This document shows positions 40,868 through 63,505 of a stretch of DNA of 64,000 nucleotides, piece by piece. The position numbers were made by a program, and so were the translations under genes. The stretch's first letter is position 1, and each line of letters opens with the position of its first letter. This stretch comes from Aquimarina sp. RZ0. GTDB lineage: Bacteria; Bacteroidota; Bacteroidia; Flavobacteriales; Flavobacteriaceae. The notes under the pieces are model-generated. The model saw only the letters and a program-made list of their open reading frames with translations, searched no databases and was not told the origin of the DNA. The stretch is taken from contig NZ_VTZU01000003.1 of assembly GCF_008370685.1 (NCBI RefSeq), forward strand, positions 167,667-231,666, in the 5' to 3' direction.

Positions 40868-42616
40868 ATGAGTAGTAAAAGGGCTTTTATTGCAATGTTT
40901 TTTTTTCTTTTATTTCAGAGTAGCGTGTATTCGTTGACTTTGATAGAAGCGTATTCTTTTGTGCAAGATACTTCTGAGGTTACAAAGAAAACCAAAGGAG
41001 CTTTGGGATTTATTAAGAAGCTATTTCATCACAATGATTCGTCTAAATTAGCTAAGAAATTTATACATCAGCATCATAAATTATTAAAAGATACTAAGAA
41101 ATCTACTTTTGCTACAGGTATTAAAAAGATACTTCATAAAGATTCTGTTTTTAAAACCAGAAAAGATTTTGAATTAGGATACGAAGTATTTGGCTGGTAT
41201 CCTTATTGGGAAAAGGATTACTACAAATATCTTAACTTTTCATTATTGTCTACAGTAGCATATTTTTCATATGAGGTGAACCCTAAAACAGGAAATGCTA
41301 TAACTACGCACGATTGGTCAACAACACCTCTGATTGATTCTATTCAACAATATTCTGATAAAAAAATATTACTTACTGTAAGTAATTTTGGACAGAAGAA
41401 TAATAGAAGCTTTCTTAATAATACCAAGGCAGTTGATCAATTGGTAAAAAATCTGATAAAGTTATTAGCTGATCGAAAGGGAAATGGAATCTGTATTGAT
41501 TTTGAAGGAGTTGCCAAGAAAGAAAAAGAAGAATATACCTCTTTTTTGCTCACACTATCTAATGAACTAAAAAAAGCAAATAAAGACTATCTGGTATACA
41601 TAACATTACCTAGTGTCAATTGGAGTGAAGCATTAGAATTTGCATCAATAAATCAATCGGTAGATAAGTTTGTGATCATGGGGTACGATTATTATGGAAA
41701 AACCAGTACTGTAGCTGGTCCTGTATCTCCTTTAGAAAGTGGTAAGGAATGGGAGCCCTATAATCTTACAACTTCTGTAGATTATTATTTAGAAAACAAA
41801 ATACCAGGTGAAAAACTTCTTTTGGCATTACCTACTTACGGGAGCATCTGGGAAACTAAAACTCAGAGTTTACAGTCTAAAGCAAAGGCATTTATAGGAA
41901 ATCGAACATTTAGTTATATCAAAACTGAAATAGAAAAAAATGAACAAATTTATATAGAACCTCTTAGTAAAAGTGCCTATAGTACCTATAGCATTAAAGG
42001 CAATAAAAAACAATATAGGCAATGTTGGTTCGAGAATGACTCCAGTTTTGTATATAAAACGAAGCTTATCAAAGATAAAAAGTTAGCAGGAATAGGCTTA
42101 TGGGCTTTAGGGTATGACAAAGGCTATAACGATATATGGAAAGTTATCAGTGCAGAAATGTCTAAACCTGCTAAAAAATCAATAGATGAAGAAACGGCAG
42201 TTGCTACTAATGACTCCATTGGTAACAATGATAGTAATTCTATTTTTTCAGGCATTACCAAAAAATTAGGACTTACAGATCCTGATAGCAAAATTAATAC
42301 TGTAGAGAAGAAACTGATATCTATAACGAATTATAAAAATATTCTACTATATACCATGTCATTCATATTATTTTTTGCCTGTGTAGGTTTTTTGGGAGCG
42401 ATGTGTACACCTAATACCCGGGCGAGTTTTTTCAATGACGCTTCTTTAAAAGGATATTATATAGGTCTGATGTTACTGTTGGCTATTGTTGTTTTTAGAA
42501 TGATAGGATGGATAGAAGATAATACTGTGATGCTTACAGTAGGTTTTTTACTAGGGATATTGGCTTTTTATCTGGCTAATAAGATTATTGAAAGAAAGAA
42601 AAAAGAATTACCATGA
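40868..42616 (+). CDS. GH18-like glycosidase with three C-terminal membrane helices, first gene of the CIS operon
   Basis: The protein has 582 residues: a signal peptide (about 1-24), a basic region, a GH18 TIM barrel (about 108-430) and three membrane spans at about 491-511, 528-546 and 553-572. The active-site strand reads GNGICIDFEGV. Compared with the chitinase DGxDxDxE motif, the last Asp and the catalytic Glu (near 211 and 213) are kept, but the first two acidic positions are Asn and Cys, closer to the YaaH/CFLE-type peptidoglycan branch. The barrel should face the periplasm. Cleavage of peptidoglycan or another glycan would help the injection device cross or leave the cell wall. It overlaps the next gene by ATGA, tying it to the CIS operon. 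Confidence 0.85.
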   Translation: MSSKRAFIAMFFFLLFQSSVYSLTLIEAYSFVQDTSEVTKKTKGALGFIKKLFHHNDSSKLAKKFIHQHHKLLKDTKKSTFATGIKKILHKDSVFKTRKDFELGYEVFGWYPYWEKDYYKYLNFSLLSTVAYFSYEVNPKTGNAITTHDWSTTPLIDSIQQYSDKKILLTVSNFGQKNNRSFLNNTKAVDQLVKNLIKLLADRKGNGICIDFEGVAKKEKEEYTSFLLTLSNELKKANKDYLVYITLPSVNWSEALEFASINQSVDKFVIMGYDYYGKTSTVAGPVSPLESGKEWEPYNLTTSVDYYLENKIPGEKLLLALPTYGSIWETKTQSLQSKAKAFIGNRTFSYIKTEIEKNEQIYIEPLSKSAYSTYSIKGNKKQYRQCWFENDSSFVYKTKLIKDKKLAGIGLWALGYDKGYNDIWKVISAEMSKPAKKSIDEETAVATNDSIGNNDSNSIFSGITKKLGLTDPDSKINTVEKKLISITNYKNILLYTMSFILFFACVGFLGAMCTPNTRASFFNDASLKGYYIGLMLLLAIVVFRMIGWIEDNTVMLTVGFLLGILAFYLANKIIERKKKELP

Positions 42617-42939
42617 GTAGTACAATAACGGTAAGTGAAAAAAAGCTGAAAGCTGAAGAAGGCAAGTTTAAAAAAATACTTGCTACAGTTAAGAAATTAG
42701 TATCCAAAGAATTGCTTTGGTTTCTGCTGGTTGCTATTGTATCTATTCCGATTGCCTTGATAATTTCATATGTAATTCATACCTACGGGTCTGATGAGGT
42801 GCTAGAAATATTTGCAATTGTAGCCGGTGATCAACCAACATTTATGGTGATTTATGCAATCTGTGCTATTGGGATTTATATATCAAGAATTATTGCCAAT
42901 GCCATTAAGACGCAATTAGAAACTTTAAAAAAAGGGTAA
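42613..42939 (+). CDS. small two-helix membrane protein of the CIS operon
   Basis: The protein has 108 residues. A charged amphipathic N-terminus (about 1-32) precedes membrane spans at about 34-56 and 75-95, with a short loop and a basic C-terminus (IKTQLETLKKG). It overlaps the GH18 gene by four bases, and the DUF4255 gene starts immediately after its stop, so all three are translationally linked. No family is recognised. It may complex with the membrane-bound GH18 protein as an anchor or pore for the device; a holin-like role is an alternative. This assignment is from context only. Confidence 0.75.
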   Translation: MSSTITVSEKKLKAEEGKFKKILATVKKLVSKELLWFLLVAIVSIPIALIISYVIHTYGSDEVLEIFAIVAGDQPTFMVIYAICAIGIYISRIIANAIKTQLETLKKG

Positions 42940-43515
42940 ATGTTAGATAAGGCTTTAACATTCATAGCATCCTATCTCAACCAAAATCTAAAAATGACTT
43001 TTGGGTTGAATGAGGATGTAGCAGTTTTAGGAAGCCTAGTAAATCTAGATGGTAGCATTACTAAAAATATCGAAAATAAAGTCATACTCTCCATTATTAA
43101 TTTAGAACACGAGAAGACCGTAAAAAATATGGGAGGGTATATACCGAATCAACAAGGTTCTTTTGGTAAAGTAGATCCTCCGGTATATCTTAATTTATAT
43201 TTATTGGTTTCGGCAAATTATAATTCTGAAAATTATCTGGAATCTCTAAAAATGTTATCCGCTGTTATAGGTCTTTTTCAATCCTCGATCATTTTTACGC
43301 CAAAAACGCATCCCGAACTTGATCCTTTAATCGAGCGATTGACTTTTGAAATTTATAATATTCCTATCCAGGAATTAAGCCACATATGGAGTGGTATTGG
43401 TGCCAAGTATGTACCATCAATGGTATATAAGATAAGAATGATCTGTTTCCAGAAAGGAATAATAAAAGAAGAAGTATCGGCGGTAAGCGGGCTGGGAACC
43501 AATATTAAAAAATAA
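42940..43515 (+). CDS. DUF4255 (Pvc16/Afp16-like) tail-cap or terminator protein
   Basis: The protein has 191 residues. The family opening MLDKALTFIASYLNQNLKMT and the block VYLNLYLLVSANYNSENYLE are typical of DUF4255 (Pvc16_N), found in nearly all Afp/PVC-type systems. In that family the protein caps the distal end of the tube-sheath and ends polymerisation. Here it comes directly after two membrane-protein genes, so the capped end may be the one that meets the membrane assembly; that is inference. The C-terminus (GLGTNIKK) is short compared with Afp16, suggesting a minimal cap. Confidence 0.9.
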   Translation: MLDKALTFIASYLNQNLKMTFGLNEDVAVLGSLVNLDGSITKNIENKVILSIINLEHEKTVKNMGGYIPNQQGSFGKVDPPVYLNLYLLVSANYNSENYLESLKMLSAVIGLFQSSIIFTPKTHPELDPLIERLTFEIYNIPIQELSHIWSGIGAKYVPSMVYKIRMICFQKGIIKEEVSAVSGLGTNIKK

Positions 43516-43521
43516 CACTAG

Positions 43522-44550
43522 ATGAATAAAGATCTTCAAGAATGGTTTCAACTGGAAATACTACACGAGTATTTTGAGATGCACTTGTGTCCTGTTTTTA
43601 AGGTAAAGCCTTTTGCATCAACTCAGCAATTGATGAAGAATTATACTATTCATATACAACAACTGGGTAATGTTTATAAAGGATATGTGGGAGTCTCAGA
43701 TACCAAAGCTACGTGGCAAGAATTAAAAGGCGTAGAGGATTTATATTTTCAATTGATTCATACGGATTCTAATTTTGCTAATTATACCGATGTTTCTACT
43801 ACTAAAAAAGAAGATACCTTACTTTATATCACAAATTCTATAGTTGCCAATAGAGTACAGGAGCAAGAATCCATTGTTCCAGATACTTATTTACCTGCAC
43901 AACCTTTACGATTTAATGTTTCAGTACCATCAGACAAACTCGTTACCGTACGTATTAAAAATAGTAAAGGAGAGCGTATACAAACACAGGTTTCTAAAGA
44001 AAAAAAATCCCGTGTTTTTGTAGATATTGAGGTTTTTGGGACAGGTATCTATGAGATTTGGATTGATGATAAACTCATAAAAACATTTTTTGGTACCTCT
44101 GAGAGAATGGATGAGAACTGTTACGGGATTTTGCATACACAGATGAGATCTGTTATAGAATCTTTAAAAGAAAACAGAGTGCCGTCATTAAAAATTAATT
44201 TCCCTGCAAGAGCTACCTATTGGCAATATGCTGTGGTAGTTCCTGATGATAAAAAGATAACCATTCGGGAACTATTACTTGAGGGGTCGGATAAAGTACA
44301 GTATACCGGTCCGGAAGAAAAAGAAATCGCTGGAGGAGTAGCATCAAAAATATTTACTTCATTAAAAATGATAAAGTTTCAGCAAAAAGTAAAAGAACAT
44401 CCTTTGTTAAAAATAAAATATAATAATGATTTTTCTGATACTGTATTAGAATTAGATCTAAAAATGCCCGTACCGAATGCATCAAAGGTTGTTTCCAAAA
44501 AGCAGAATAACGAGAATTTATTTTATTCTCAAACTATAATCTATGTATAA
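43522..44550 (+). CDS. unknown CIS-operon protein between cap and sheath genes
   Basis: The protein has 342 residues, begins 6 bases after the cap gene and has no signal peptide or membrane span. An N-terminal part (about 1-125) resembles small beta-rich structural modules (NYTIHIQQLGNVYKGYVGVS). A middle part (about 140-190) looks like an Ig-type beta fold (FNVSVPSDKLVTVRIKNS). The C-terminal part (about 205-342) contains ARATYWQYAVVVPDDKKITI and ends YSQTIIYV. I do not recognise the family. Its place suggests a collar, cap accessory or terminator component. Confidence 0.7.
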   Translation: MNKDLQEWFQLEILHEYFEMHLCPVFKVKPFASTQQLMKNYTIHIQQLGNVYKGYVGVSDTKATWQELKGVEDLYFQLIHTDSNFANYTDVSTTKKEDTLLYITNSIVANRVQEQESIVPDTYLPAQPLRFNVSVPSDKLVTVRIKNSKGERIQTQVSKEKKSRVFVDIEVFGTGIYEIWIDDKLIKTFFGTSERMDENCYGILHTQMRSVIESLKENRVPSLKINFPARATYWQYAVVVPDDKKITIRELLLEGSDKVQYTGPEEKEIAGGVASKIFTSLKMIKFQQKVKEHPLLKIKYNNDFSDTVLELDLKMPVPNASKVVSKKQNNENLFYSQTIIYV

Positions 44551-44567
44551 CTCTTAAATTAAAAAGA

Positions 44568-46235
44568 ATGTCAGTAACAGCAATGAAAACCCCAGGGGTC
44601 TATATCCAGGAGCTGGATGCCTTTGGAAATGCAGTTGTACCTGTGCCTACGGCAATTCCGGCTTTTATCGGATTTACGGCGCAGACCAACTATAATGGTA
44701 AAGACCTGGTCAATAAAGCGGTTAAAGTAACCTCTTTGGCAGAGTTTAATGCAATTTTTGGGAGCAAACCTCCTCTAATTCAATTTAGTGTCACTGCAAT
44801 TTCTGCCAAACCACCGAAACCCGCTACTCCGGCAGCAACAGATCCAAAAAAGAAACCAGCTGATGCAGCTTCAAAACCAGCTGGAGATACGAGTACAGCC
44901 TCTGCGGTTCCTGATTTTCTAATGGGAACTAATGGATATTCATTAGCAACATCTACTGTAAATTATCGATTGTATAGTGCTGTTCGATTCTTTTATGAAA
45001 ATGGAGGAGGAACCTGTTATATTGTATCTACGGGAGGATACGATTATTCGTTGACAGGATTATCATCTACAAAACCCTTTGAAGATGCATTAACCGTGCT
45101 GACAAAAGAAACAGAGCCAACGATGATTGTAATTCCGGATGCAGTGGAATTAATGGATCCAACAGAGGCTGAACTGGCTAATAAGTATGCTTTGTGTTAT
45201 ACATTACAGGGAGAGATGATCAATCATTGTGGAGAATTGGCAAGTAGAGTGGCGCTTATAGACATTCCAGGGGGATATAGTGAGCCATTAGTAGGAACCA
45301 CTAGTATAGAAGGATTCAGAAATGCAGTAGAACCTACACTTCCTAAGTTTAATAGTTATGCTGCTGCATATTATCCGTGGCTACACACTACAGTGAATCA
45401 ATTAGGAGATGTATCTTATAAAAATATTGCACCAGGAAGTTATGCTGCTGTAAAAACATTATTAACATCAGAATTTCCGGCAGTAACAGATCCTAAGACT
45501 AAAAGTGCTGTACCTAATCCCATTACTAAGTATATAACAGCATTATTTGCAGCAAAACCTGCTGCAGATGGTATTACTCAAGATAAAGCAGATGGAGTAC
45601 TTAAAAATTTAAGTGCGTCTTATAAGTTATTGTTAAAACACATGCTTGAGAAACTTAATTTAATGCCTCCCAGTGCTGCCATGGCAGGAATATATACCAC
45701 AGTAGATAATAATGAAGGTGTATGGATTGCACCAGCCAATGTAGGAGTACAAGGAGTAATCACGCCGGCTGTAAAAGTAGATCATCAGGCGCAGGAAGAT
45801 CTTAATATGCCATTAGATGGTAAATCAATTTGTGCCATCAGGGCTTTTCCCGGTAAAGGAGTTTTAGTATGGGGAGCAAGAACATTGGATGGTAATTCTA
45901 ATGATTGGCGATATATCAATGTGAGAAGAACACTCATATATATAGAACAATCTGTAAAAGAAGCAGCAAGTGCTTATGTTTTTGCGCCTAATGATGCCGT
46001 AACCTGGGTAGCTGTAAAAAGTATGATCAGTAACTTTCTTATAGGATTATGGAATCAGGGAGGCCTGGTCGGACCTAAACCTGCAGATGCATTTTCTGTA
46101 ACGGTTGGATTAGGAAGCACTATGACAGGTGATGATGTTCTTAATGGAAGAATGATTGTAGCAGTAAAAGTTGCAGTATCACATCCTGCAGAATTTATTG
46201 AGATTACTTTTCAGCAGGAAATGCAGAAAGGGTAA
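44568..46235 (+). CDS. contractile tail sheath protein
   Basis: The protein has 555 residues. The N-terminal KTPGVYIQELDAFGNAVVPV matches the phage/CIS sheath opening, and the C-terminal domain holds the classic GKGVLVWGARTLDGNSNDWR and RRTLIYIEQSVKEA motifs. The sheath polymerises around the inner tube and contracts to drive it out. An insert at about residues 83-115 is rich in Ala, Pro, Lys and Thr (PATPAATDPKKKPADAASKP) and probably forms a flexible surface loop. The window holds only one sheath gene, whereas Afp has three. The gene starts 17 bases after the unknown protein gene. Confidence 0.97.
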   Translation: MSVTAMKTPGVYIQELDAFGNAVVPVPTAIPAFIGFTAQTNYNGKDLVNKAVKVTSLAEFNAIFGSKPPLIQFSVTAISAKPPKPATPAATDPKKKPADAASKPAGDTSTASAVPDFLMGTNGYSLATSTVNYRLYSAVRFFYENGGGTCYIVSTGGYDYSLTGLSSTKPFEDALTVLTKETEPTMIVIPDAVELMDPTEAELANKYALCYTLQGEMINHCGELASRVALIDIPGGYSEPLVGTTSIEGFRNAVEPTLPKFNSYAAAYYPWLHTTVNQLGDVSYKNIAPGSYAAVKTLLTSEFPAVTDPKTKSAVPNPITKYITALFAAKPAADGITQDKADGVLKNLSASYKLLLKHMLEKLNLMPPSAAMAGIYTTVDNNEGVWIAPANVGVQGVITPAVKVDHQAQEDLNMPLDGKSICAIRAFPGKGVLVWGARTLDGNSNDWRYINVRRTLIYIEQSVKEAASAYVFAPNDAVTWVAVKSMISNFLIGLWNQGGLVGPKPADAFSVTVGLGSTMTGDDVLNGRMIVAVKVAVSHPAEFIEITFQQEMQKG

Positions 46236-46288: not shown

Positions 46289-46750
46289 ATGGCAGATGAT
46301 GGATCAGCACAAGGTGCAATTTGGCCGTTGACTAAGTTTTATTTTACAGTAAGTTTAGGTTCACAAGATAGCACGGCTTCTTTTCAGGAAGTTTCTGGAT
46401 TAGAAACAGAAACACAGATTGTAGAATACAGACATGGAGATAGCAAAACATTTAGCACCATAAAAATGCCTGGAATTGCTAAAACAGGTAATGTGACGCT
46501 TAAAAAAGGAGTGTTTGTAAAAGATAATAATTTCTGGAAATGGTATGATGCTATAAAAATGAATACGATCAAAAGAGAAACAGTAGTCATTCAATTATTA
46601 GATCAGACTGGAGCTCCTACTATGACCTGGACATTAACCAATGCCTGGCCAACAAAAATTACGGCGACAGATTTAAAATCAGAAGCAAATGAGGTAGCAG
46701 TGGAGACGCTAGAATTAGCGCATGAAGGCTTAACAATTGCGAATGAGTAA
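46289..46750 (+). CDS. inner tube protein, Afp1-like (T4 gp19 family)
   Basis: The protein has 153 residues. FYFTVSLGSQDSTASFQEVSGLETETQ and the KTGNVTLKKGVF block fit the gp19/Hcp-related tube family of CIS, with the C-terminal ANEVAVETLELAHEGLTI. It should form the main hexameric tube inside the sheath. It lies 53 bases after the sheath gene, the largest gap among the early structural genes; a strong independent ribosome binding site would be expected for such an abundant part. It is paralogous to the next gene. Confidence 0.95.
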   Translation: MADDGSAQGAIWPLTKFYFTVSLGSQDSTASFQEVSGLETETQIVEYRHGDSKTFSTIKMPGIAKTGNVTLKKGVFVKDNNFWKWYDAIKMNTIKRETVVIQLLDQTGAPTMTWTLTNAWPTKITATDLKSEANEVAVETLELAHEGLTIANE

Positions 46751-46752
46751 CT

Positions 46753-47202
46753 ATGAGTAGTGATTATCCCATTACAGGTTTTTATTTTAGACTAACTTTT
46801 CCTTTGGAATTAGGATTACTGGATACTTCATTTAAAGAGGTGTCGGGGATGGCGATGGAAATGGGAATCGAAGAAATTGCAGAAGGTGGGGAGAACCGGT
46901 TTAAGCACCGGGTTCCTACTGGAGCAAAATACCAAAACCTGGTTCTTAAACGAGGATTGACCACCAGTGTATCGGCACTTTCATTATGGTGCGAGGCTAC
47001 CTTAGCAGGTGGTTTATCCTCTACGATTATAAAGCAAACCGTTATTGTGAGTCTTATGGACGAAAATTCTTTACCTATTAAAAACTGGAGCTTTGTAAAC
47101 GCCTGGCCTGTAAAATGGGAGTTTTCGCCATTAAATTCCATGAATAATGAGATTGTTATAGAAACACTTGAGTTAACCTATGATTATTCCTTAGTACTAT
47201 AA
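46753..47202 (+). CDS. second tube protein, Afp5-like
   Basis: The protein has 149 residues in the gp19 family. FYFRLTFPLELGLLDTSFKE and KYQNLVLKRGLTTS align with the neighbouring tube protein, and the end is NNEIVIETLELTYDYSLVL. In Afp/PVC systems the second tube protein (Afp5) forms the tube initiator ring on top of the spike. It starts two bases after the first tube gene stop. Confidence 0.92.
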   Translation: MSSDYPITGFYFRLTFPLELGLLDTSFKEVSGMAMEMGIEEIAEGGENRFKHRVPTGAKYQNLVLKRGLTTSVSALSLWCEATLAGGLSSTIIKQTVIVSLMDENSLPIKNWSFVNAWPVKWEFSPLNSMNNEIVIETLELTYDYSLVL

Positions 47203-47203: not shown

Positions 47204-47362
47204 ATGCCAATAGAAATAAGAGAACTTGTTATCAAAGTTAAAGTAGAAGAGAAAATGAATACTTCTCAAGAGCTTTTGGATATGGATGAGGTGCGAAAAT
47301 CGATCACTTCTATTTGTAAAAAAGAAGTAAAGAAACAATTGGAGAAACATAAAGAACGATAG
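47204..47362 (+). CDS. small DUF5908-like CIS protein
   Basis: The protein has only 52 residues, starting MPIEIRELVIKVKVEEKMN and ending in a basic helix (KKEVKKQLEKHKER). Very small proteins with this opening (DUF5908) sit between the second tube gene and the LysM gene in Bacteroidota injection-system operons; this is recalled, not searched. Its frame is tightly spaced: it begins two bases after the tube gene, and its TAG is immediately followed by the ATG of the next gene. The role is unknown; a baseplate assembly factor is plausible. Confidence 0.8.
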   Translation: MPIEIRELVIKVKVEEKMNTSQELLDMDEVRKSITSICKKEVKKQLEKHKER

Positions 47363-48034
47363 ATGTCAAAAGATTTGATGGAGATTATAGCATATTCAGA
47401 TAATGAATATTCTGGATCGGGCACCTCAAGCTGTACGGTTCAAATCAATCCTGCATCCTACTCTCATGAACATAGGACATCGTATAATAACACAGTGTCT
47501 CAGGGAGCACCTGGTGCAACCTTAAAATTCAAAGGAATCTCGCCGGAAAAAATATCTTTTGATATTTATTTTGATGCTACAGGAGCGGTGAGTACCGCAA
47601 GTATTCTAGATTCGCAAGTAGCTGTGGATGATCAGATACAAACTTTTAAAGACGTATGCTTCACTTATAATGGAGATATCCATGAACCTAATTATCTAAT
47701 TGTGTCCTGGGGGACATTAGTTTTTAAATGCAAGCTAACCTCTCTAAACATATCTTATACATTATTTCAGAGTGATGGTACTCCATTAAGAGCTAAATTA
47801 TCAGTGTCTTTTGAAGAAGCTATCGATGCTGATTTGATCGCTAAAGATGCGGGTAATTTATCTCCTGATCTTACACATTTGGTAGAAGTAAAAGATGGAG
47901 ACACCTTGCCTCTTATCTGTTATAGAATGTATGGTGATACCAGTTATTATATGGAAGTTGCAAAATATAATAATTTACTCAATTTTAGAGATATCCCTCC
48001 AGGGACAAAAATATATTTACCACCAATTAAATAA
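47363..48034 (+). CDS. LysM-containing baseplate protein, Afp7-like
   Basis: The protein has 223 residues. The N-terminal beta domain (about 10-160) shows SCTVQINPASYSHEHRTSYN and SPEKISFDIYFDATGAV. A C-terminal LysM domain (about 168-220) has VEVKDGDTLPLICYRMYGDT and ends IPPGTKIYLPPIK. It corresponds to Afp7/T4 gp53, which links the tube initiator and the spike. In CIS proteins the LysM fold usually binds neighbouring baseplate parts rather than peptidoglycan. Confidence 0.92.
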   Translation: MSKDLMEIIAYSDNEYSGSGTSSCTVQINPASYSHEHRTSYNNTVSQGAPGATLKFKGISPEKISFDIYFDATGAVSTASILDSQVAVDDQIQTFKDVCFTYNGDIHEPNYLIVSWGTLVFKCKLTSLNISYTLFQSDGTPLRAKLSVSFEEAIDADLIAKDAGNLSPDLTHLVEVKDGDTLPLICYRMYGDTSYYMEVAKYNNLLNFRDIPPGTKIYLPPIK

Positions 48035-49825: not shown

Positions 49826-50305
49826 ATGAAGTATAAAACATCATTTTTAGGAACCGGATGGGGATTTCCTCCAACATTTCATAAAGAAAAAGAATTAGGT
49901 GTCGTTATGGTATCTGATGAGAAGGATATAGAGCAATCTCTTGAGATTCTATTAAATACGACCATAGGAGAACGTATAATGTTACCTAAATATGGGACTG
50001 ATTTATATAGTTATTTGTTTGAATCTATTTCTAACTCCAGAGTACATCTTATTAAGGAAATGCTCAGAACTGCTATTGTAAAATTCGAACCTAGGATTAA
50101 ATTAATAAAAATAGCATTAGACGAGTCTGATTATCTGGACGGAATTATAAGAATAAATTTAGATTATATAATTCCTTTGACGAATACAAGATTTAATCTA
50201 GTGTTTCCATACTATAAAGTAGAGGGAACAGATATACCTTTATTATATAAAAAGCAATTACAAAAATCAGAAGTTTTGCCTAAAACATTAGAAGATATTA
50301 CCTAA
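49826..50305 (+). CDS. gp25-like baseplate protein, Afp9
   Basis: The protein has 159 residues. LGTGWGFPPTFHKEKELGVV and the conserved SLEILLNTTIGERIMLPKYG (the gp25/GPW signature with EPR-like FEPRIKLI) mark the wedge protein gp25. It joins sheath initiation to the baseplate wedges. It begins one base after the spike gene stop. Confidence 0.96.
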   Translation: MKYKTSFLGTGWGFPPTFHKEKELGVVMVSDEKDIEQSLEILLNTTIGERIMLPKYGTDLYSYLFESISNSRVHLIKEMLRTAIVKFEPRIKLIKIALDESDYLDGIIRINLDYIIPLTNTRFNLVFPYYKVEGTDIPLLYKKQLQKSEVLPKTLEDIT

Positions 50306-54006: not shown

Positions 54007-54086
54007 TAATTAGAAACTATACAATATCATATCCCCAAAGACTTCAAAAATAACGAACGGATACTCATTACCTAAATAAGATCAAA

Positions 54087-54859: not shown

Positions 54860-57736
54860 GTGGATAGAAAAGGATATATAAAGAAAAAGAAGAAAGGGAC
54901 AGGTCTATACGAAGATCTTCATCTGGAGGGATTAGAAGTTCTTCAGAAGTTGAGTGGTGCCGTATGGACAGACTATAATGAACATGATCCCGGGGTTACC
55001 TTATTAGAAAATATATCCTACGCACTTACAGAATTAATACATAAAACAGAGCTGCCCATACAAGATCTTCTTATACAAAAAGAAGGAGAAGAATTACGTT
55101 CTGGGGATAATGGGCTATTTGTAGCATCAGATATTCTAACGACAGATCCTATTACCTTTAATGATTACAGAAAAATATGGATTGATCAAATAACAAATGT
55201 AAAAAATGTATGGATACATCCTGTGGATGTTGAATCATCATCAGTTAATAATGCTAAAGGATTCATGTATGTCTATGTAGAGAAATATGTATATGCACAG
55301 GAGCCTGAGGAAGAACTCATAGAGAATCAACGCATTATTAAAGAAGTAATAGCCTTATATAATGATCATAGAAATTTATGTGAAGATATTTATAAAGTAG
55401 AAATATATGAACCTTTATTCCTCACGCTTGAATTAGAAGTATCTTTATCAGAGAAAGTCGATGGAGAAGAAATATTGGCAACAATACTGAACAAAATAAA
55501 TAATTATCTGACTCCAGAAGTCAACTACTATCCATTATGGAAATTGCAGGAAAAAGGAATGTCTGCCAATGAAATTTTTAATGGTCCGCGATTATCCAAT
55601 GGATTTATTCTGGATGAAGATCTAAAAGACCCTTTAAAAGAGATTATTATTTCGGATATCATAAAAATTATAGCTAGAATTGATGGAATCCTGAGCATTG
55701 CTAATTTTTGTCTAAAGTATACCGATAAAAAAAGCGGAAAAGAAGTATCTATAAGAAATCGTCTGAATATCCCGGTAAATACTGCACCAGTAGTTAGTTT
55801 TCCAGCGGCAAACGAAAAATTGATTTTTGAGAATTCCGGGATTTTTTTTCAGCCTGATTTAGCAGAAACAAAAAAACAATTGTCATTCATTCAGGCATTG
55901 GATTATGGAAATTACAGAGCAGCTTCTACTTCTTTAAATAGAATACCTATACCACAAGGAACTTATAAAGATATAAACTATCATTACCCAATCAGGAAAC
56001 AGTTTCCAGAACTATACGGAATAGGAGATGTTGGTATTAGTGCAAATGCTACCCCATTACGAAAAGCACAGGTAAAACAATTACAAGCATATCTGATGCC
56101 AATCGATCAGCTGATGGTTAATTTTTTAAGTCAATTAAGCAATCTATACACATTATATGATGTTCATAATACAATAGAACGGTCATATTTTACAAAAGAA
56201 TTACCAGATTTAGACGATTTGATAGAACTGATTAGACCTCCAGAAAATTACGACGATATCTCTGTTGTAAAATCCTATTGGGATACCCTGGTAAAAGCAC
56301 TTAATACACATTTTGATGTAGGTGTTTTAGAACGTTTTGATGCCATTGCAGATCAATTATTAGCTAGATATAATGAAGAATTTAGAACCTACGCATTACG
56401 CAAAATTAATAGTAATAGTTATGGAGAAGCTCTTACATCTGATCGATTCGAGAAAGAAGCGTTAGCAATGAAAAGGGCTTTTATAGCATCATATGATTCA
56501 ATAAGTTATACCCGGGCACGTGCTTTTAATTATCATGCCTTATCAGAAACAGGTGTACAGAAAAATCAGAAACAATTAATTCCAGGATTGTTTAGAAAAA
56601 TTGCAATTCTTACAGGGATGAATGATTTTAGAATACAGTCGCTCACTAAAATTCTGGAAGATTCTGGAGTTATAGTGCATCCCAAGGCTGTAGAAATAGA
56701 ACTTAAGGTTAGAGAAATAGATATCCATACACCAGAAGAAGATATTGCAATTGTCACTATAGAAGATGTAGTTGTTAATGAAGTGATAGAAGAAGACTTG
56801 TATAAGGCAATGCACTACGTAGGGACAGAAGATAGTATTCTAAGTGAAATATTAAAAAATGGAGTGTTATCACAAAATTATACCATTAAAAAAGATCCTA
56901 ATACTGATGATAAGTATTATATTTTATATAAAAGAGGAATTACGACTTCCAATATAGCACACATCTGTGACAGCAGGGAACACGCGGTTGCATCTATTAA
57001 GAAAGCGATTAATTATTTGGTAGCGCTTAGTCATAAAAGCGAAGGATTTTTTGTATTAGAACACCTATTATTACTACCTCCATATCACGGAGATTATTTT
57101 GGCTTTTATCTTGATTTTTCTTTACTCATGACAAAAGTGAATTTACGAATACAGCATCATGAGCAAACTTCATGTAACTACCGAAATCGAAAAATAAATA
57201 CACTATTAGAACAACTATATCTGGATGAATTGCAGTATAAAGGAATCTTGAGGAATGACTGTTATACAATAGAAATTGTCAGTTCAGAAGGAGAAATACT
57301 GGCTATATCAAAAGACAGGTACGATTCTGAAAAAGAATGGCAGGATGTGATCAAAGAATTACAAAATGAATTATCTCTTGTGGATAAAGAACAATTGTCA
57401 GATATCGTTCAGTGCTATGTATATTATGGGGCACATGCGGTAAAAGAAGATTTTTTTTCCTTCAGGATGAGTTTTATTTTACCATCCTGGCCGGTACGTT
57501 TTCAGAATGAGAGTTTCAGAATGATGTTTGAAAATATTGTATATGAACACCTGCCAATCCATTTAGTAGCCAAGGTATATTGGCTGGACTATAAAGTAGT
57601 TCATTTATTTGAAGCCTATTATTTTAGATGGCAGGAACTAATGATAGATGATCAGGGTCATGAAGACCGCGTGTATCAGGCATATCAGTTGATAACTATG
57701 TTACAGGAATTAGAGCAACAATATGATGAATTTTGA
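54860..57736 (+). CDS. baseplate wedge protein, Afp12-like
   Basis: The protein has 958 residues and starts at GTG 54860. LEVLQKLSGAVWTDYNEHDP followed by GVTLLENISYALTELI is the Afp12-type opening. The middle includes PLWKLQEKGMSANEIFNGPR and a long helical part, and the C-terminal region (about 730-958) is mixed beta/helical (FFVLEHLLLLPPYHGDYFGF). It should pair with the Afp11-like protein in the wedge. It overlaps the tape measure gene by four bases. Confidence 0.88.
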   Translation: MDRKGYIKKKKKGTGLYEDLHLEGLEVLQKLSGAVWTDYNEHDPGVTLLENISYALTELIHKTELPIQDLLIQKEGEELRSGDNGLFVASDILTTDPITFNDYRKIWIDQITNVKNVWIHPVDVESSSVNNAKGFMYVYVEKYVYAQEPEEELIENQRIIKEVIALYNDHRNLCEDIYKVEIYEPLFLTLELEVSLSEKVDGEEILATILNKINNYLTPEVNYYPLWKLQEKGMSANEIFNGPRLSNGFILDEDLKDPLKEIIISDIIKIIARIDGILSIANFCLKYTDKKSGKEVSIRNRLNIPVNTAPVVSFPAANEKLIFENSGIFFQPDLAETKKQLSFIQALDYGNYRAASTSLNRIPIPQGTYKDINYHYPIRKQFPELYGIGDVGISANATPLRKAQVKQLQAYLMPIDQLMVNFLSQLSNLYTLYDVHNTIERSYFTKELPDLDDLIELIRPPENYDDISVVKSYWDTLVKALNTHFDVGVLERFDAIADQLLARYNEEFRTYALRKINSNSYGEALTSDRFEKEALAMKRAFIASYDSISYTRARAFNYHALSETGVQKNQKQLIPGLFRKIAILTGMNDFRIQSLTKILEDSGVIVHPKAVEIELKVREIDIHTPEEDIAIVTIEDVVVNEVIEEDLYKAMHYVGTEDSILSEILKNGVLSQNYTIKKDPNTDDKYYILYKRGITTSNIAHICDSREHAVASIKKAINYLVALSHKSEGFFVLEHLLLLPPYHGDYFGFYLDFSLLMTKVNLRIQHHEQTSCNYRNRKINTLLEQLYLDELQYKGILRNDCYTIEIVSSEGEILAISKDRYDSEKEWQDVIKELQNELSLVDKEQLSDIVQCYVYYGAHAVKEDFFSFRMSFILPSWPVRFQNESFRMMFENIVYEHLPIHLVAKVYWLDYKVVHLFEAYYFRWQELMIDDQGHEDRVYQAYQLITMLQELEQQYDEF

Positions 57737-60700
57737 AAAATGAGCAAACACATATTATTAAGAGTCAGCGCTATGAAGTAGTATTGGAGCAATCATCTGA
57801 GGCCTATAGCTATCAATCTAAAATAAGCTACCTGCAAACCTATCAGATACAGTCATTGTTGCAAAAAATAATGGATAAATATAGCTCAGAAGAATTTCTG
57901 GATCAATTTGAAGAAATTGTCTTGGATTTAGGAACAGTTTCGCCTTCAAATTTTGAAAAAGAAATATTTTATAGGGTAGAAGAAGCACTAACTACTTTTT
58001 TAGAAAACAATTCTTTTGATAACGGAACCTTAAAAACAGGAAAACGAGTACAGATCTATAACAAAAAGATAGATCAGTTTGCATTTTTTCTAAAAAATGG
58101 GTATGTAAATTGGCAGGTTGTCACTACAGAAAGACCAGAACAATTATTTCTGGAGCTGATAGCGAATAATAAAGAGGCACTTATTAAACTAGTAAAAGAG
58201 CAAGGTCAAAAAGAGGTCATACGCACACGTATGATTGCACAATTAAAAGACTCTTTTTTAGAACAAATAGTAGAAGGAGTTGCGGGTAATGAAGGGATTT
58301 ATATCAATCAATACCGACAGGATATTATCAGGAAGCAAAAGAGTGAAAAACTAATAGAAACGGCAACAGCTGATTTTAGAAAAGCTACCTGGGAAATAGT
58401 ACTGACATATATTTTTGTAGAAGCCAATGGATATTATAATAGAAAGAGCTTTCTAAAACTTTTGATCTATAAAATTGCACAAAAATATAGATTGACCTAT
58501 AAGAGCCTTCTCAGAACAATTATATTGGGGATAAAAGATAGACATGACAAGGGAAGAAAGGTTTTGGATTTTGAAAAACTGCTGATCACCCTTCAGGAAG
58601 AGGCAGAAAAAGAAGGAAAAACAAGAAATGATTATCAGAAAAAGGGACTAAAAAAAGAAGAACAGGATTTTATAAAAACCCTTCAATATTTTATGAACTA
58701 CGGTTCATTACCTGTGGGAATTGATATTTCTTCTTTTCAAGAGTTTTATAAAAAAGTAGTGTCTTATATCGATAATCATCCCAGAATATTTACAGACTTT
58801 ATTGATGGTTGGATACAACAATCATCAAAAATAGATCGGTTAATTAAGCAATTTCCGGATGCAATACTCTATAAAATACTCAGTCGTTCAAAAAATACCA
58901 TAATACTAAAACTTACAGCTTTTATGTCCTTAGTACATAAAATAGCTGAACAAAGACTGATAGAAGCAAATTCTCTGAAAAAAATACAGGGAATGATTCT
59001 TCTCAAAACCTATAAAAAAATACTCCATGCATCAGGTAGTGAGTGGAGAGAATTCTTATTTCAGATCATACTTCATATAACTATCGATACAGAACTTCTT
59101 GAGGTATTAAAAAAAACAGAAAGCCTACTTCCATCTCAAGAAAATGAGATTGAGATGCTGTACTCAGAATTAATAATTAATAGGATAGAAGTAACAGGAA
59201 TAGAGGAGGTTCAGGTTTCAGAGAAGGTTCTCTCTCAGGTTGGGGTTTCAGAAAGATTATATCATGTTTATAATCAGAGAGAAAGAAGTAGTGTAGAAGA
59301 ATTTAAGGTATTTTTAGAAAAAGAAATACATATTGAGAAAACCATAAAAATAGTATACACTTTATTAGAGCTTTGTGCTAAGAGCAAGACGTATACTACT
59401 ACAGAAATTAGCGAATGGGTAGTAAAAAGAGTTGAAGAATTAAAAACTCAAGGAAAATATGCTAATCATACTTCTGTGATAAGAGAAATCCTTAAGTTAT
59501 TAAGGCAATTAGGAATACCCGAAACCATAGTTATGGGTGTAGAAGGAGCATTAACGATTCTGCAGAAAAGAAAAAACAAACAGCTGCCAGCGATAAAATC
59601 TTCTGATGAAATATCCCGAAATATTCCGGATACTATCTATAAAATACTCATAGAACAGATCTATGATCAATTTTATAAACAAACAGAGCAGAACCTACAT
59701 GAGCGCATTACTACGCTGTTTCTTGAATTTTCAAATACATATAAAGTATCAGTTACTTACCTAAAAGAAGGATTAAAGAAACAAATTGCTAATCGGAAAG
59801 ATGTACAATTGATAAAAAGAATTATAGAAGATATTTCATCCGAGAGTACAATAACAGTACAACAAAAGGTGATAAATATCCAATATAAGCTGGATGTTAT
59901 ACAGTATTTCTCTGATACGGCTACATTACCCTGGTGGGCAAAAGACACACAGCGATCAGTAGTACAAGAATACTTGGCAGAGGTAATAACCGAGTTTCCA
60001 GAACGCTTCTTGCACTGGTATAGAATGGCAAAAAACCAATACCTGTTGATTGGTATCATGAAAGAACATACTTATGATACTTTTCTAGGGCAAATAAATT
60101 CATCTGTTAGTCGTCAGGTATTTCAGATTAAAGAATATATAGAACAGCTACTGACAAAAAAAATTAAGCAGATCAGACAAGTTACACAGGATCATATTCA
60201 TCACATACGGCATATGATAGTTAGCTATGCTTTCAAAAACGGGAGCATACATACGTTGGATTTTACTAGATATCTGATCAATGCGATTGCAAGAGTATTT
60301 ACTATTGAAGAAGATAGCATCAACATATTATTAAATGAACAAATAAAAGATAACAAAACAACCGAGTTTTGTGACGAAGTTTTTTCGTGGCTGGATTCCC
60401 AGGTAAAAAGAATAGCATCTCAGGATGAGGTAATAGAAGTAAAAAAACTTATTGAGGAGCAAAAGGATTGGGAAAGTGTCATCAGATTCACTCCCAGAAA
60501 AGAGGTATTGTTCATTCTCAAAACCATTCAAAAAACGAAGCCGGCAGGATTGCTTTTTAATCTAAAACGGATGGCTTTCAGAAAGCAGTTAATAAGCACA
60601 TTAAGTCATAAAGAACAGCTAGTATTGGTACAATTATTTATGGATATACCAAATCAATCTAAGTTTACAGATATGATGACTGTTTTCGAGAAATTACGCA

Positions 60701-61515
60701 GGCACATCACAGGATCTCAATATCAAAAAATTTGGGCATATTTTATAGAAACAGTATTATTGACCATCGCAATAGACAAACCTGCAGATTGGTCTGTAAA
60801 AAGATGGTGTATGCTACTGACACAATCAGTCTGGATGCTAAAAGATGCGATAGATCCAGAAACTATTCTTTTGACAATAGCAGCGGAGACTGCGGGAGCG
60901 ATACAGAATGTGCTGTTGCAAACACGGGAAGGAATAGTACAAAAGAAAGAAGAAGTTTTTCTAATAGAAGAGGAGGTAGTGTTTCAGGAAACACCAGAAG
61001 AAATCATTGGCGATGCCATATATATCAAAAATGCAGGAATGGTCATTTTGGGACCGTATATTCCCATGTTATTTGATCGGTTGAAATTTACAGAAAACGG
61101 GAAATTCAAAAATGAAGATTGTATACAAAAAGGAATACACATACTGCAATATGCGGTTACAGGCAGGGCATATGAAGAAGAGCAACAATTGGCATTAAAT
61201 AAAATTATATGTGGGATAGATATCCATACCCCAGTTCAAAAATATGTAGATATCGCCCCGGAAGAAAAAGAATTGGTAAAAGGATTACTACAAGCTATTA
61301 TTACGAATTGGAGTATTCTTAAGAATACGTCAATTGAAGGGCTTAGAGAATCATTTTTGCGTAGAGATGCGCGAATTGTGATTGAAGAAGATAGTTATAT
61401 ACTTACAGTCGAGCAAAAATCATTTGATATGTTGCTGGATCAAATCCCATGGAGTATTGCTAAATTAAAATTGAGTTGGATGCAAAAATTATTAGAAGTA
61501 CTATGGAGACAATAA
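57733..61515 (+). CDS. contractile injection system tape measure protein
   Basis: The very long helical protein has 1260 residues and starts at TTG 57733, overlapping the Afp12-like stop. The N-terminal block SYLQTYQIQSLLQKIMDKYS with IVLDLGTVSPSNFEKEIF, and the C-terminal SFDMLLDQIPWSIAKLKLSW, match both conserved ends of the CIS tape-measure family. The centre is variable and helical. Its length sets the tube length. Central repeats were not evident by eye. The TTG start with coupling to the upstream stop may keep its level low. Confidence 0.92.
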   Translation: MKNEQTHIIKSQRYEVVLEQSSEAYSYQSKISYLQTYQIQSLLQKIMDKYSSEEFLDQFEEIVLDLGTVSPSNFEKEIFYRVEEALTTFLENNSFDNGTLKTGKRVQIYNKKIDQFAFFLKNGYVNWQVVTTERPEQLFLELIANNKEALIKLVKEQGQKEVIRTRMIAQLKDSFLEQIVEGVAGNEGIYINQYRQDIIRKQKSEKLIETATADFRKATWEIVLTYIFVEANGYYNRKSFLKLLIYKIAQKYRLTYKSLLRTIILGIKDRHDKGRKVLDFEKLLITLQEEAEKEGKTRNDYQKKGLKKEEQDFIKTLQYFMNYGSLPVGIDISSFQEFYKKVVSYIDNHPRIFTDFIDGWIQQSSKIDRLIKQFPDAILYKILSRSKNTIILKLTAFMSLVHKIAEQRLIEANSLKKIQGMILLKTYKKILHASGSEWREFLFQIILHITIDTELLEVLKKTESLLPSQENEIEMLYSELIINRIEVTGIEEVQVSEKVLSQVGVSERLYHVYNQRERSSVEEFKVFLEKEIHIEKTIKIVYTLLELCAKSKTYTTTEISEWVVKRVEELKTQGKYANHTSVIREILKLLRQLGIPETIVMGVEGALTILQKRKNKQLPAIKSSDEISRNIPDTIYKILIEQIYDQFYKQTEQNLHERITTLFLEFSNTYKVSVTYLKEGLKKQIANRKDVQLIKRIIEDISSESTITVQQKVINIQYKLDVIQYFSDTATLPWWAKDTQRSVVQEYLAEVITEFPERFLHWYRMAKNQYLLIGIMKEHTYDTFLGQINSSVSRQVFQIKEYIEQLLTKKIKQIRQVTQDHIHHIRHMIVSYAFKNGSIHTLDFTRYLINAIARVFTIEEDSINILLNEQIKDNKTTEFCDEVFSWLDSQVKRIASQDEVIEVKKLIEEQKDWESVIRFTPRKEVLFILKTIQKTKPAGLLFNLKRMAFRKQLISTLSHKEQLVLVQLFMDIPNQSKFTDMMTVFEKLRRHITGSQYQKIWAYFIETVLLTIAIDKPADWSVKRWCMLLTQSVWMLKDAIDPETILLTIAAETAGAIQNVLLQTREGIVQKKEEVFLIEEEVVFQETPEEIIGDAIYIKNAGMVILGPYIPMLFDRLKFTENGKFKNEDCIQKGIHILQYAVTGRAYEEEQQLALNKIICGIDIHTPVQKYVDIAPEEKELVKGLLQAIITNWSILKNTSIEGLRESFLRRDARIVIEEDSYILTVEQKSFDMLLDQIPWSIAKLKLSWMQKLLEVLWRQ

Positions 61516-62855
61516 CAGAGAAGAATATAACAATACAGTTGTTACAAGAGATTGCCTGGCTCGAAACTATTATCGATACTTCAGTAACATTGTATTTTAA
61601 AAATGAAAGTCCATATGGTTCTGTACAAGAAATAAAACCTCCTCCTATAGAAAATGAAGAGGCTGGGTATGCCCAGTTATTAAGAAAATATGATCTTAGT
61701 TTTGAAGAACGCGTAATACTCATTTTGGCACTAATTCCACATATAAAACCACAGTGTCTGGATGTATTTCTTATAAAAAATAAAAATATAGATACAGAAT
61801 TTTCAGAATTTGGAGGGCTAAAGGACTCAAAACACGTTGGTTTTATACCAACTATCGAAACAGCATGTTTTATTGTGGGAGGAGCTGATGATATGGCTAT
61901 TAGACTAAGATTTATGAAAAAGATTCATAAAGATCATTTCCTGTATCGCGACCGTATTTTACAAGCAGAAAAATATCCGATCAGATTACAGGAAAAATTA
62001 GAACTCTCTGAAGAATCATTACATACGATTATTACCGGAAAAGAATATGTACCTACATATAGTTCGCGATTTCCTGCGCAATCAATCACCACAAAGTTAA
62101 GTTGGGAAGATCTTATCGTAGCTCCAAGTGTTAGGGAACAATTAGATGAAATCCAGCAGTGGTTGCAACATAGTGATCTTATATTGAGACAATGGGGGCT
62201 CAATAGAAGTCTGAAACCCGGATTTCGGGTATTGTTTTATGGATCTCCGGGAACCGGAAAAACATTAGCAGCTACATTATTGGGAAAAACAACTAACACT
62301 CCTGTTTTTAGAATAGATCTCTCGATGATTGTGTCTAAATATATTGGAGAGACAGAAAAAAACCTGGGACATTTATTCGATGAAGCTGCATCAAAAGATT
62401 GGATTTTGTTTTTTGATGAAGCCGATGCTTTGTTTAGTAAACGTACACAAACCAACAGCTCTAATGACCGTCATGCCAATCAGGAAGTAGCATATTTGTT
62501 ACAACGGATAGAGGATTTTGATGGGTTGGTAATATTGGCTACTAATTTACAAAGTAATATAGACGAAGCTTTTTTAAGACGTTTTCAGATTACAATTGAT
62601 TTCCCAAAACCAACATATAAAGAACGAAAGCTATTATGGCAAAATATGGTAGGAAGCATTTTTGAAATAGAAGAAGGAGCTGATGTGCTTGATACCATAG
62701 CAAAAGAATATGAGCTATCTGGAGGGGAAATGATTAATGTGGTAAGATACTGCGCTATAAAGGCAGCGAGTCGCGGAGAAAAAAGAATAATGTTAAATAC
62801 GATTATGAAAGGTATTAAAAGAGAATATAGTAAAAGCAATAAAACGTTTAATTAA
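61503..62855 (+). CDS. AAA+ ATPase, Afp15-like
   Basis: The protein has 450 residues from the ATG at 61503, which overlaps the tape-measure stop by 13 bases; a TTG at 61476 extends the frame but adds only residues lying inside the upstream gene. An N-terminal domain (about 1-200) precedes an AAA+ core with Walker A GSPGTGKTLAATL, Walker B ILFFDEADALFSK, the sensor LATNLQSNIDEAFLRR and the arginine-finger region. Afp15-type ATPases help assemble the baseplate or load tape measure and cargo. Confidence 0.95.
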   Translation: METITEKNITIQLLQEIAWLETIIDTSVTLYFKNESPYGSVQEIKPPPIENEEAGYAQLLRKYDLSFEERVILILALIPHIKPQCLDVFLIKNKNIDTEFSEFGGLKDSKHVGFIPTIETACFIVGGADDMAIRLRFMKKIHKDHFLYRDRILQAEKYPIRLQEKLELSEESLHTIITGKEYVPTYSSRFPAQSITTKLSWEDLIVAPSVREQLDEIQQWLQHSDLILRQWGLNRSLKPGFRVLFYGSPGTGKTLAATLLGKTTNTPVFRIDLSMIVSKYIGETEKNLGHLFDEAASKDWILFFDEADALFSKRTQTNSSNDRHANQEVAYLLQRIEDFDGLVILATNLQSNIDEAFLRRFQITIDFPKPTYKERKLLWQNMVGSIFEIEEGADVLDTIAKEYELSGGEMINVVRYCAIKAASRGEKRIMLNTIMKGIKREYSKSNKTFN

Positions 62856-62870
62856 AAAAAATAGAAGAAT

Positions 62871-63260
62871 ATGGCAAATCAAGTATGCAGTGGAGCGATT
62901 ATATCCTGCTCTTTTGGGTCTGCACCTTCCACATTGACAATATTACCAGTTAATATGGTAAATACAAGTAGTATGCCTGCAGCTACTATTATGGATTATA
63001 CTCCACTGGTCAATATTATGAGTTTTGGCACCTGTTCATCACCGACAAACCCTACTGTAGCGGCAGCAACCAGTGCAGCACTTGGAGTTTTGACGCCCAT
63101 GCCCTGCATTCCAGCCACTGCTTCACCCTGGACACCTGGTATTTCTGATGTGGCGATTGGTAGTCTATCTGCATTGGATGATAGTAGTACGTGCACGTGC
63201 AGCTATGCAGGGACCATATCAATTACATCCGCGGGTCAGGTACAAACTACGGTTTCATGA
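62871..63260 (+). CDS. DUF4280 PAAR-like tip protein, Afp10-like
   Basis: The protein has 129 residues, starting VCSGAIISCSFGSAPSTLTI, with paired CxC/CSC elements and VNIMSFGTCSSPTNPTVAAA and PMPCIPATASPWTPGI. The glycine- and proline-rich beta structure with scattered cysteines matches DUF4280, the PAAR-like cone that sharpens the spike tip and may carry effectors. In Afp the tip gene (Afp10) sits after gp25, whereas here it is displaced to the operon end after the ATPase. Its last codons overlap the next gene (ATGA). Confidence 0.9.
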   Translation: MANQVCSGAIISCSFGSAPSTLTILPVNMVNTSSMPAATIMDYTPLVNIMSFGTCSSPTNPTVAAATSAALGVLTPMPCIPATASPWTPGISDVAIGSLSALDDSSTCTCSYAGTISITSAGQVQTTVS

Positions 63261-63505
63261 ATACAATTGGGATGTTAATTTCTAAAATAGTAGAGAATCC
63301 TTATGTGAATGTTATAATATCTATAGGATTAATTTTTATAGGGATTGAAGAGCTATATAAAGATGATGTTTTTAATCTAAAATTTCATTGGAAACATATA
63401 ATGAGTTTTTATGGATTGTTTATGTTATTTCACTCGATGTTTAAAATTTTGAAAGGAGGTATTGGAATCTATAATACACATAAAAAACTAAAAAAGAAGA
63501 GCTGA
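63257..63505 (+). CDS. small membrane protein at the end of the CIS operon
   Basis: The protein has 82 residues from the ATG at 63257, which overlaps the tip gene stop; the frame is open further upstream to 63191 but that would run inside the tip gene. Two hydrophobic segments (about 15-33 and 46-64) are separated by a charged loop (EELYKDDVFNLKFHWKH), and the tail is very basic (KKLKKKS). No family is recognised. Like the 108-residue protein at 42613 it is membrane-bound within a CIS operon, so it may help anchoring or release; the basic C-terminus is holin-like, which is suggestive only. Confidence 0.7.
   Translation: MNTIGMLISKIVENPYVNVIISIGLIFIGIEELYKDDVFNLKFHWKHIMSFYGLFMLFHSMFKILKGGIGIYNTHKKLKKKS

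Follow-up and report, generated by a model that had tools for sequence, protein, structure and literature searches.

A GH18-barrel membrane protein linked to one clade of Bacteroidota contractile injection systems, and its candidate role as an envelope anchor

The stretch of DNA analysed here, hereafter the window, comprises 64,000 nucleotides of Aquimarina sp. RZ0 at the end of the 231,666-base contig NZ_VTZU01000003.1 in a 7.0-Mb genome, and carries an 18-gene operon for a contractile injection system (CIS) of the extracellular (eCIS) lineage. Its first gene encodes a GH18 barrel joined to three membrane helices (GH18-TM) and its second a small two-helix membrane protein (TM2). Across Bacteroidota, GH18-TM keeps to one CIS clade, in varied gene orders, and accompanies a tail fibre with a constant head. 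From these sequence patterns we infer that GH18-TM, usually with TM2, is probably, though far from certainly, the inner-membrane and cell-wall anchor of a cell-attached CIS resembling subtype iv of the type VI secretion system (T6SSiv). A preliminary description of this DNA had proposed a cell-anchored device, or one with its own wall-passage and release parts; the link of GH18-TM to one CIS clade supports that proposal, with anchoring as its best reading, whereas a third membrane protein, at the operon's end, fell away as a machine part. The genes on which the argument turns are the following.

40868–42616, + strand: gene 1, GH18-TM; likely signal peptide, GH18 barrel at residues 109–417 (PF00704, 5.6e-36) that is likely periplasmic, linker, three C-terminal membrane helices and a tail ending KKELP
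42613–42939, + strand: gene 2, TM2; 108 amino acids (aa), basic N-terminal stretch and two membrane helices, 4-base overlap with gene 1, orthologues at the same place in relatives
54087–54839, + strand: tail fibre with constant head, 250 aa; baseplate-type N-terminus (3.5e-5 against All3316) and beta-rich C-terminal domain

GH18-TM, its cluster linkage and the constant fibre

Genomes carry G handles and loci L handles, G000 being the window's own genome. We scanned named genomes for GH18 loci and analysed the best 79 of 319 candidates that passed, counting a locus as CIS-linked if its fetched flanks held at least two CIS components (matches to LysM, ATPase and DUF4280 excluded). Among these best 79, 47 of the 56 loci with membrane helices (some genomes are in twice and some repeat genomes already under G handles) were CIS-linked, versus none of the 23 TM-less loci with even one component. 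Where GH18-TM lay apart from a full cluster (eight of the nine unlinked loci, plus L207), a sheath gene was found elsewhere in all nine genomes; the ninth unlinked locus, L189, has one cap gene on a short contig and was outside the sheath search. GH18-TM can be the first gene before the cap, or stand before a two-helix open reading frame (ORF) and DUF4280 (G176, G092), before wedge 2 (G008b), between wedge 1 and spike (Flammeovirga), after the ATPase (L185) or after the tubes (Aureibacter). It ranges over Flavobacteriales, Cytophagales, Bacteroidales metagenome-assembled genomes, Saprospirales (Portibacter) and Balneolaceae. On plasmids pAT3 of Aureibacter and pPP2 of Persicobacter it lies inside a CIS cluster, annotated merely as a GH18 protein; none was listed on the other sheath-bearing plasmids opened (Parabacteroides, Iodobacter), for which gene tables are incomplete. 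Two more CIS clusters in the window genome, of other types (C177:52000–73000 and C113:55000–82000; L062–L065), are without GH18-TM. Linkage, varied gene order and absence from C177 and C113 together argue that GH18-TM is not a chance neighbour of the operon.

The same operon, with a sheath at least 80% identical, occurs in five Aquimarina genomes including the window's, and GH18-TM is first in 5/5. A profile of the GH18-TM tail matched 19 of 397 family genomes; the eight strong matches (window included) and G176 were followed and all located in CIS clusters, the seven strong ones besides the window being ordered GH18-TM, TM2, cap, with three cut by contig ends. The match in G141 was false, as that genome has no sheath, and nine further weak matches lay outside this check. 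Because G092, G332 and G187 were missed by the profile and later found through the tube protein, absence in the tail scan is weak evidence. A tube-protein search matched 74 of the 397 genomes, and among the 26 best loci besides the window's, nine carried GH18-TM, four had both wedges and a sheath without it, and 13 were stripped. The preliminary description had named homologous operons without the membrane genes as evidence against its view, and such relatives exist in part: G425, G252, G435 and G179 have both wedges and a sheath and no GH18-TM. These four are also without the constant fibre (G179 is cut at a contig edge), and the 13 stripped loci, lacking both wedge genes, are likewise without GH18-TM.

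In Portibacter's order, Saprospirales, a sheath was found in 37 of 198 genomes, a match to a Saprospirales-type GH18 profile in 18 and both in ten; five loci in which GH18 and sheath lie no more than about 5 kilobases apart on one contig were read. In G1162 and both Portibacter clusters (G730, G813) the gene is kept before the cap and is followed by a 92–96-aa two-helix protein. For the two Portibacter proteins, which have no Pfam match, the tie to GH18 comes from a profile and from relatives with matches; the G730 protein, matched by neither Pfam nor profile, is placed solely by its likeness to that of G813.

In the AlphaFold2 model of GH18-TM, the barrel has a confidence score (pLDDT) of about 90 and the C-terminal helices span residues 475–512, 525–545 and 551–579. 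The N-terminal hydrophobic segment is, by eye, a likely signal peptide, the linker is variable and a basic tail follows the helices; an odd number of helices and a basic tail are what one would expect if the barrel is periplasmic and the C-terminus cytoplasmic. Foldseek matched the model to GH18-fold structures (best 4.6e-22), and the closest solved relatives of the barrel by sequence include YdhD and YaaH/SleL of spore formers, which are spore-linked and not CIS-linked. Compared with the catalytic motif, taken as DxxDxDxE, the window protein reads NxxCxDxE (NGICIDFE, residues 206–213), so that the last Asp and Glu (Asp211, Glu213) are kept and the first two positions altered. After 90% redundancy removal we compared 149 proteins with at least two tail helices and 24 without, all from GH18-TM searches and not an independent sample: the final residue is Pro in 147/149 versus 2/24, and the catalytic Glu is present in 146/149 and 24/24. 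The Glu is lost in G332, in Aureibacter (by eye) and in 20 of 21 proteins of the Saprospirales-type branch, a divergent group around Portibacter in which WEVRN adjoining the membrane helices is identical in 21/21; G1162 reads WQVRN in its place. An OmpA domain (2.5e-18) was found on one of 30 GH18-TM proteins scanned, in the CIS operon of L213/G1065. A chitinase-type eCIS toxin has been predicted (PMC8213781); GH18-TM as injected cargo was rejected on its likely signal peptide and three membrane helices.

The fibre is the second element of the pattern. Its C-terminal domain (residues 135–250) heads the conservation list of ten clusters, from which tubes were left out, with 67.6% mean pair identity, followed by the tube initiator (66.5%) and sheath (65.9%), with the wedges at 42–43% and the tape measure at 26.5%. 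Fibres with variable ends have been described for eCISs (PMC12923769), and the variable receptor-binding end of secreted eCISs is not seen here, the head being conserved across the ten clusters. A constant head leads us to expect a constant partner. The two fibres of C177 share 75.5% over their first 140 residues and 37% after. No hydrophobic helix was found in the fibre sequence, so the C-terminal membrane helix of the thylakoid CIS is absent; the model is beta-rich and weak (pLDDT 65), with no Foldseek match below 0.001.

Searches at order and phylum level gave a full-length fibre in 3 of 246 and 6 of 395 genomes respectively, the window and G393 being in both sets; from many partial matches, G989 was followed. 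All 20 examined clusters with a full-length fibre carry GH18-TM, a count that is no significance test because the two genes are tied by descent. All 20 were also found by searches without GH18: by tube (G393, G146, G271, G357, G332, G092, G176, G187), by fibre (G551, G921, G755, G730, G813), by sheath (G000, G060, G061, G063, G008a) or on plasmids (Aureibacter, Persicobacter psychrovividus). GH18-TM was in none of the nine examined clusters with both wedges and sheath and no full fibre (G425, G252, G179, G435, G057, G000-C177, G000-C113, G001 and G989; G057 and G179 are cut near the cap), of which C177 and G989 share just the N-terminus of the fibre.

The sheath was placed in a CIS phylogeny, as the preliminary description had advised. 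The tree has 68 rows, Amoebophilus and Aureispira not among them, and is midpoint-rooted; its L-named rows were recovered by GH18 and so carry the GH18-TM label by construction. The CIS of Algoriphagus machipongonensis (AlgoCIS) and the thylakoid CIS grouped with GH18-TM-lacking clusters and L182 (100/99), outside the main GH18-TM clade. The other side consists of GH18-TM clusters except for one subclade without it (some stripped) and the stripped G438. Judged from this tree, GH18-TM probably arose early in the main clade and was lost at least once. PDB chain 9r9h, the nearest solved sheath, lies inside the GH18-TM clade beside G332 (100/97); its best named homologues are mostly gammaproteobacterial.

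The operon and its small membrane proteins

The eighteen + strand genes at 40868–63505 form one operon-like run of 17 ORFs of at least 60 aa and one of 52 aa; most neighbours abut or overlap, and the widest gap is 80 bases (54006–54087). ORFs together with Pfam and PDB matches confirmed the 18-gene, same-strand CIS operon of the preliminary description, and its statement that the first two genes encode membrane proteins, the first with a GH18 barrel, agrees with the PF00704 match and with hydrophobic helices read from sequence in genes 1, 2 and 18. The cap adaptor and the tail fibre are additions to its gene list. The remaining genes are these.

42940–43515, + strand: cap with Pvc16 N-terminal domain, Alg16A-like, 191 aa (PF14065, 1e-31)
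43522–44550, + strand: cap adaptor, Alg16B-like, 342 aa, by place and size as in AlgoCIS and not by sequence; present in relatives, no Pfam family above cut-off
44568–46235, + strand: contractile sheath, 555 aa (PF17482 and PF04984, 1.4e-13 and 4.3e-8; PDB relatives)
46289–46750, + strand: inner tube protein 1 (PF06841, 9.5e-48; AlgoCIS tube, 1e-46)
46753–47202, + strand: inner tube protein 2 (PF06841, 6.6e-38)
47204–47362, + strand: 52-aa ORF, presumably DUF5908/plug-like; similar-sized ORF at the same place in many relatives
47363–48034, + strand: CIS_tube tube initiator with LysM-like end (PF19266, 3.1e-51; PF05489, Phage_tail_X, 8.4e-5)
48043–49824, + strand: VgrG-like spike (PF04717, PF05954; 1.8e-20)
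49826–50305, + strand: gp25 baseplate wedge (PF04965, 3.1e-21)
50341–54006, + strand: large wedge 1, Alg11/Cis11-like, 1221 aa (PDB 7aeb_G, 2.2e-57; 7b5h_AH, 4.5e-51)
54860–57736, + strand: large wedge 2, Alg12-like, 958 aa, by place and conservation in relatives; no Pfam match
57733–61515, + strand: tape measure protein, 1260 aa (PF19268, CIS_TMP, 1.2e-105)
61476–62855, + strand: AAA+ ATPase, Afp15-like (PF00004, 8.1e-30)
62871–63260, + strand: DUF4280 protein (PF14107, 1.2e-32), from which a PAAR-like spike-tip role seems likely
63191–63505, + strand: TM3, lineage-specific two-helix membrane protein, likely start ATG 63257

Judged by gene content, with cap, sheath, tubes, tube initiator, spike, gp25, two wedges, tape measure and AAA ATPase together, the operon is an eCIS-lineage CIS. 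Sheath, tube and large wedge place 9r9h/9rce nearest among solved relatives, followed by AlgoCIS and next by the thylakoid CIS; PVC and Afp are more distant. No Pfam match to T6SS membrane-complex families (TssJLM/TssNQOPR) appeared among the 17 genes scanned (the 52-aa gene was left out, and Pfam coverage of these families is unchecked), and Rfam gave no match within 38–64 kb. The contig stops 495 bases past the last gene, about where five relatives hold eCIS_core cargo-type genes, which limits the word 'complete'. Several clusters without DUF4280 have a 96–103-aa ORF between spike and gp25, annotated PAAR in Aureibacter and Persicobacter. Since short overlapping ORFs can hide in gene-order tables (TM2 of G061/L149, DUF4280 of G551), the counts used were rechecked for them.

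The preliminary description had asked whether the membrane genes co-occur in related operons. GH18-TM does so within one CIS clade and TM2 is frequent, but TM3 is lineage-specific. TM2 is not universal: seven clusters (L175, L178–L181, L184, L211) gave no TM2 match and have 2–123 bases between GH18-TM and cap. TM3 was found in seven of ten close clusters and is missing in G008a, G357 and G551. Behind TM3, in the opposite direction, five relatives carry eCIS_core (PF13699) genes, likely cargo, at L050:2198–3577, L052:1409–2986, L054:1709–3217, L089:4193–5695, L091:3246–5615 and L091:5631–6926. TM3 is absent from G008a, where no eCIS_core gene was noticed, so it may go with the cargo; in G271, TM3 is present and no eCIS_core gene was noticed. 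Given its presence in 7/10 close clusters and the eCIS_core genes close behind in five, we rejected TM3 as a core machine part, a role that the preliminary description had implied for it; it may instead be cargo-related (immunity or loading).

Several neighbouring arrangements are worth recording. Stripped CIS loci (L104–L105 in G438, L132–L133 in G410, L134–L135 in G306, L124–L125 in G242, L140–L141 in G279) hold differing subsets of cap, cap adaptor, sheath, tube, spike and a 167–172-aa tape-measure end, with no gp25, wedges or fibre. Their genes are closely packed where coordinates were read, and with 13 of the 26 examined tube-bearing loci lacking both wedges, they are possibly baseplate-less contractile devices or remnants. 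In the G271 cluster (L094:6173–11129) the sheath-tube unit is repeated, with sheaths of 764 and 538 aa that are unlike each other. In G008b, two LuxR-type response regulators (L059:3554–4246 and 4702–5391) lie between divergent halves of the cluster, and G176 and G092 have similar-sized genes at that place. Elsewhere in the window, 26348–31663 encodes a 1771-aa protein with a type IX secretion system sorting tail and ricin-type lectin, Ig, PKD and RoxA-like cytochrome c domains.

Anchoring and its alternatives

In the mechanism that we favour, GH18-TM would sit in the inner membrane so that the barrel faces the periplasm and the basic tail with its final Pro faces the cytoplasm. Peptidoglycan would be held by the barrel and, where the catalytic Glu is kept, also opened by it. 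The membrane part would serve as the dock for the baseplate, the contact probably being the constant head of the fibres, which are likely trimers, and on firing the tube would pass through the cell's own envelope and into a neighbour, in T6SS style. A constant fibre needs a constant partner, and as GH18-TM is the one membrane protein found with the fibre every time, a mount is the simplest reading. Because catalysis is lost in some branches and the membrane part kept, holding rather than cutting appears to be what all members have in common; in most of them cutting may contribute to opening the wall. The recurrent C-terminal Pro and the single OmpA fusion also count in favour of an anchor.

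Membrane-tied CISs have precedents (PMC11566945, PMC8894136, PMC12237407, PMC10781749). AlgoCIS (eCIS subtype Ib) shares with the window a short cap and cap adaptor, sheath, tubes and a large cage-type wedge, with strong sequence matches in sheath, tube and wedge. Unlike the anchored device proposed here, it is reported free in cytoplasm and medium (PMC8894135), and it is not part of the main GH18-TM clade; the text of that paper contains none of the words transmembrane, membrane protein and chitinase. T6SSiv of Amoebophilus and Aureispira, compared by description, is placed there in the same CIS group, subtype Ib, with AlgoCIS and metamorphosis-associated contractile structures, and is membrane attached. 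Aureispira is reported with a trans-envelope complex (PMC11566945), and in Portibacter, which also belongs to Saprospirales, the cap is preceded by a GH18-TM-type gene and one for a two-helix protein; the Amoebophilus system differs in being described as minimal. The thylakoid CIS of Anabaena has a fibre with a related N-terminus (All3316) and is an eCIS-lineage machine fixed to a membrane, but its membrane helix is in its own fibre (PMC8894136), whereas the window fibre has none and separate membrane proteins are encoded. The haloarchaeal T6SS anchor Hbor_38620 (six helices and a cytoplasmic domain) and Streptomyces CisA (one helix and a substrate-binding-like domain) are likewise clade-specific membrane proteins tied to eCIS-lineage clusters, with no GH18 barrel mentioned in the available descriptions. 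Subtype iii of Bacteroidota T6SSs offers, in TssNQOPR, a phylum-specific substitute for TssJLM (PMC10781749), with different proteins and a T6SS baseplate as described. Among the papers listed on CIS clusters, judged on titles, abstract openings and term counts, no GH18 membrane protein was found; a prior mention is possible.

Several observations weigh against an anchor. GH18-TM requires four changes on the sheath tree, its co-occurrence with the fibre is not phylogenetically independent, and L182 has GH18-TM yet sits, on a long branch, on the AlgoCIS side. In the partial locus of G008b, GH18-TM is present and the fibre missing. Distant clades differ in the sequence of TM2, seven clusters have GH18-TM with no TM2 next to it, the eCIS_core genes beside five relatives are typical of eCISs, and the topology of GH18-TM rests on sequence and on a model with pLDDT of about 60 in that part. 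Retention of the catalytic Glu in 146/149 proteins means that hydrolysis, and hence a lytic role, may matter in most. In the window's genus a sheath was found in 42 of 52 genomes and the GH18-TM operon seen in five, with few other sheath loci examined, so most CISs of the genus are of other types; similarly, 27 of the 37 sheath-bearing Saprospirales genomes are without a profile match, so GH18-TM is not general in that order.

The alternative that survives best, though unlikely, is a release cassette, in which free eCIS particles leave through a producer cell opened by GH18-TM and TM2 (and TM3) as an endolysin-holin pair. The spore proteins YdhD and YaaH/SleL among the nearest solved barrel relatives, the widely kept Glu, the holin-like size and two helices of TM2 and TM3, and the freeing of eCISs by lysis (PMC8894135) speak for it. 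However, G332, Aureibacter and 20 of 21 Saprospirales-type proteins have lost the Glu while the membrane part stays, so that an active lytic enzyme is not found in all members, although the window keeps its Glu; the enzyme is fixed by three helices rather than free, the window genome's other two CISs lack GH18-TM, and the constant fibre head is left unexplained.

Somewhat less probable still is a firing adaptor in the manner of CisA, by which floating particles would be fired at the cell's own membrane under stress, killing it. CisA is a membrane protein required for firing and conserved in its clusters (PMC12237407), and this model predicts the same membrane link as an anchor does, but the published description makes CisA bitopic, with another C-terminal fold, and the wall-directed domain and constant fibre of the present system suggest standing docking. 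We regard as improbable that GH18-TM is mainly a wall opener that perforates the cell's own peptidoglycan where the machine is assembled, the anchor being another part; the Glu and neighbouring Asp are kept in most members and one protein has a fused OmpA-type domain, but the Glu-less branch retains the gene, at its usual place in three clusters. That GH18-TM is an unrelated glycan-degrading gene adjoining the operon by chance, as the TM-less GH18 paralogs common in Aquimarina and Tenacibaculum might suggest, was rejected and is largely refuted by the linkage counts, the shuffled gene orders and the C-terminal Pro.

Beyond the anchor itself, we hold more tentatively, and with some doubt, a wider possibility: T6SSiv-type injectors of Bacteroidota could have an unrecognised complex for anchoring and wall passage whose founding subunit is GH18-TM, a chitinase fold turned mount, with the constant fibre head as inward clamp and the hydrolase shut off in the Saprospirales-type branch once cutting was unneeded. 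How an eCIS-type tail becomes a cell-anchored weapon, and how T6SSiv holds the envelope, are still open questions in the literature consulted. With one gene that marks a clade, bears a tail motif and an active site open to point tests, and is matched by a constant fibre head, the question becomes testable in cultured genera such as Aquimarina, Flavivirga or Flammeovirga. Used as a survey marker, GH18-TM would sort Bacteroidota clusters that may not all be extracellular.

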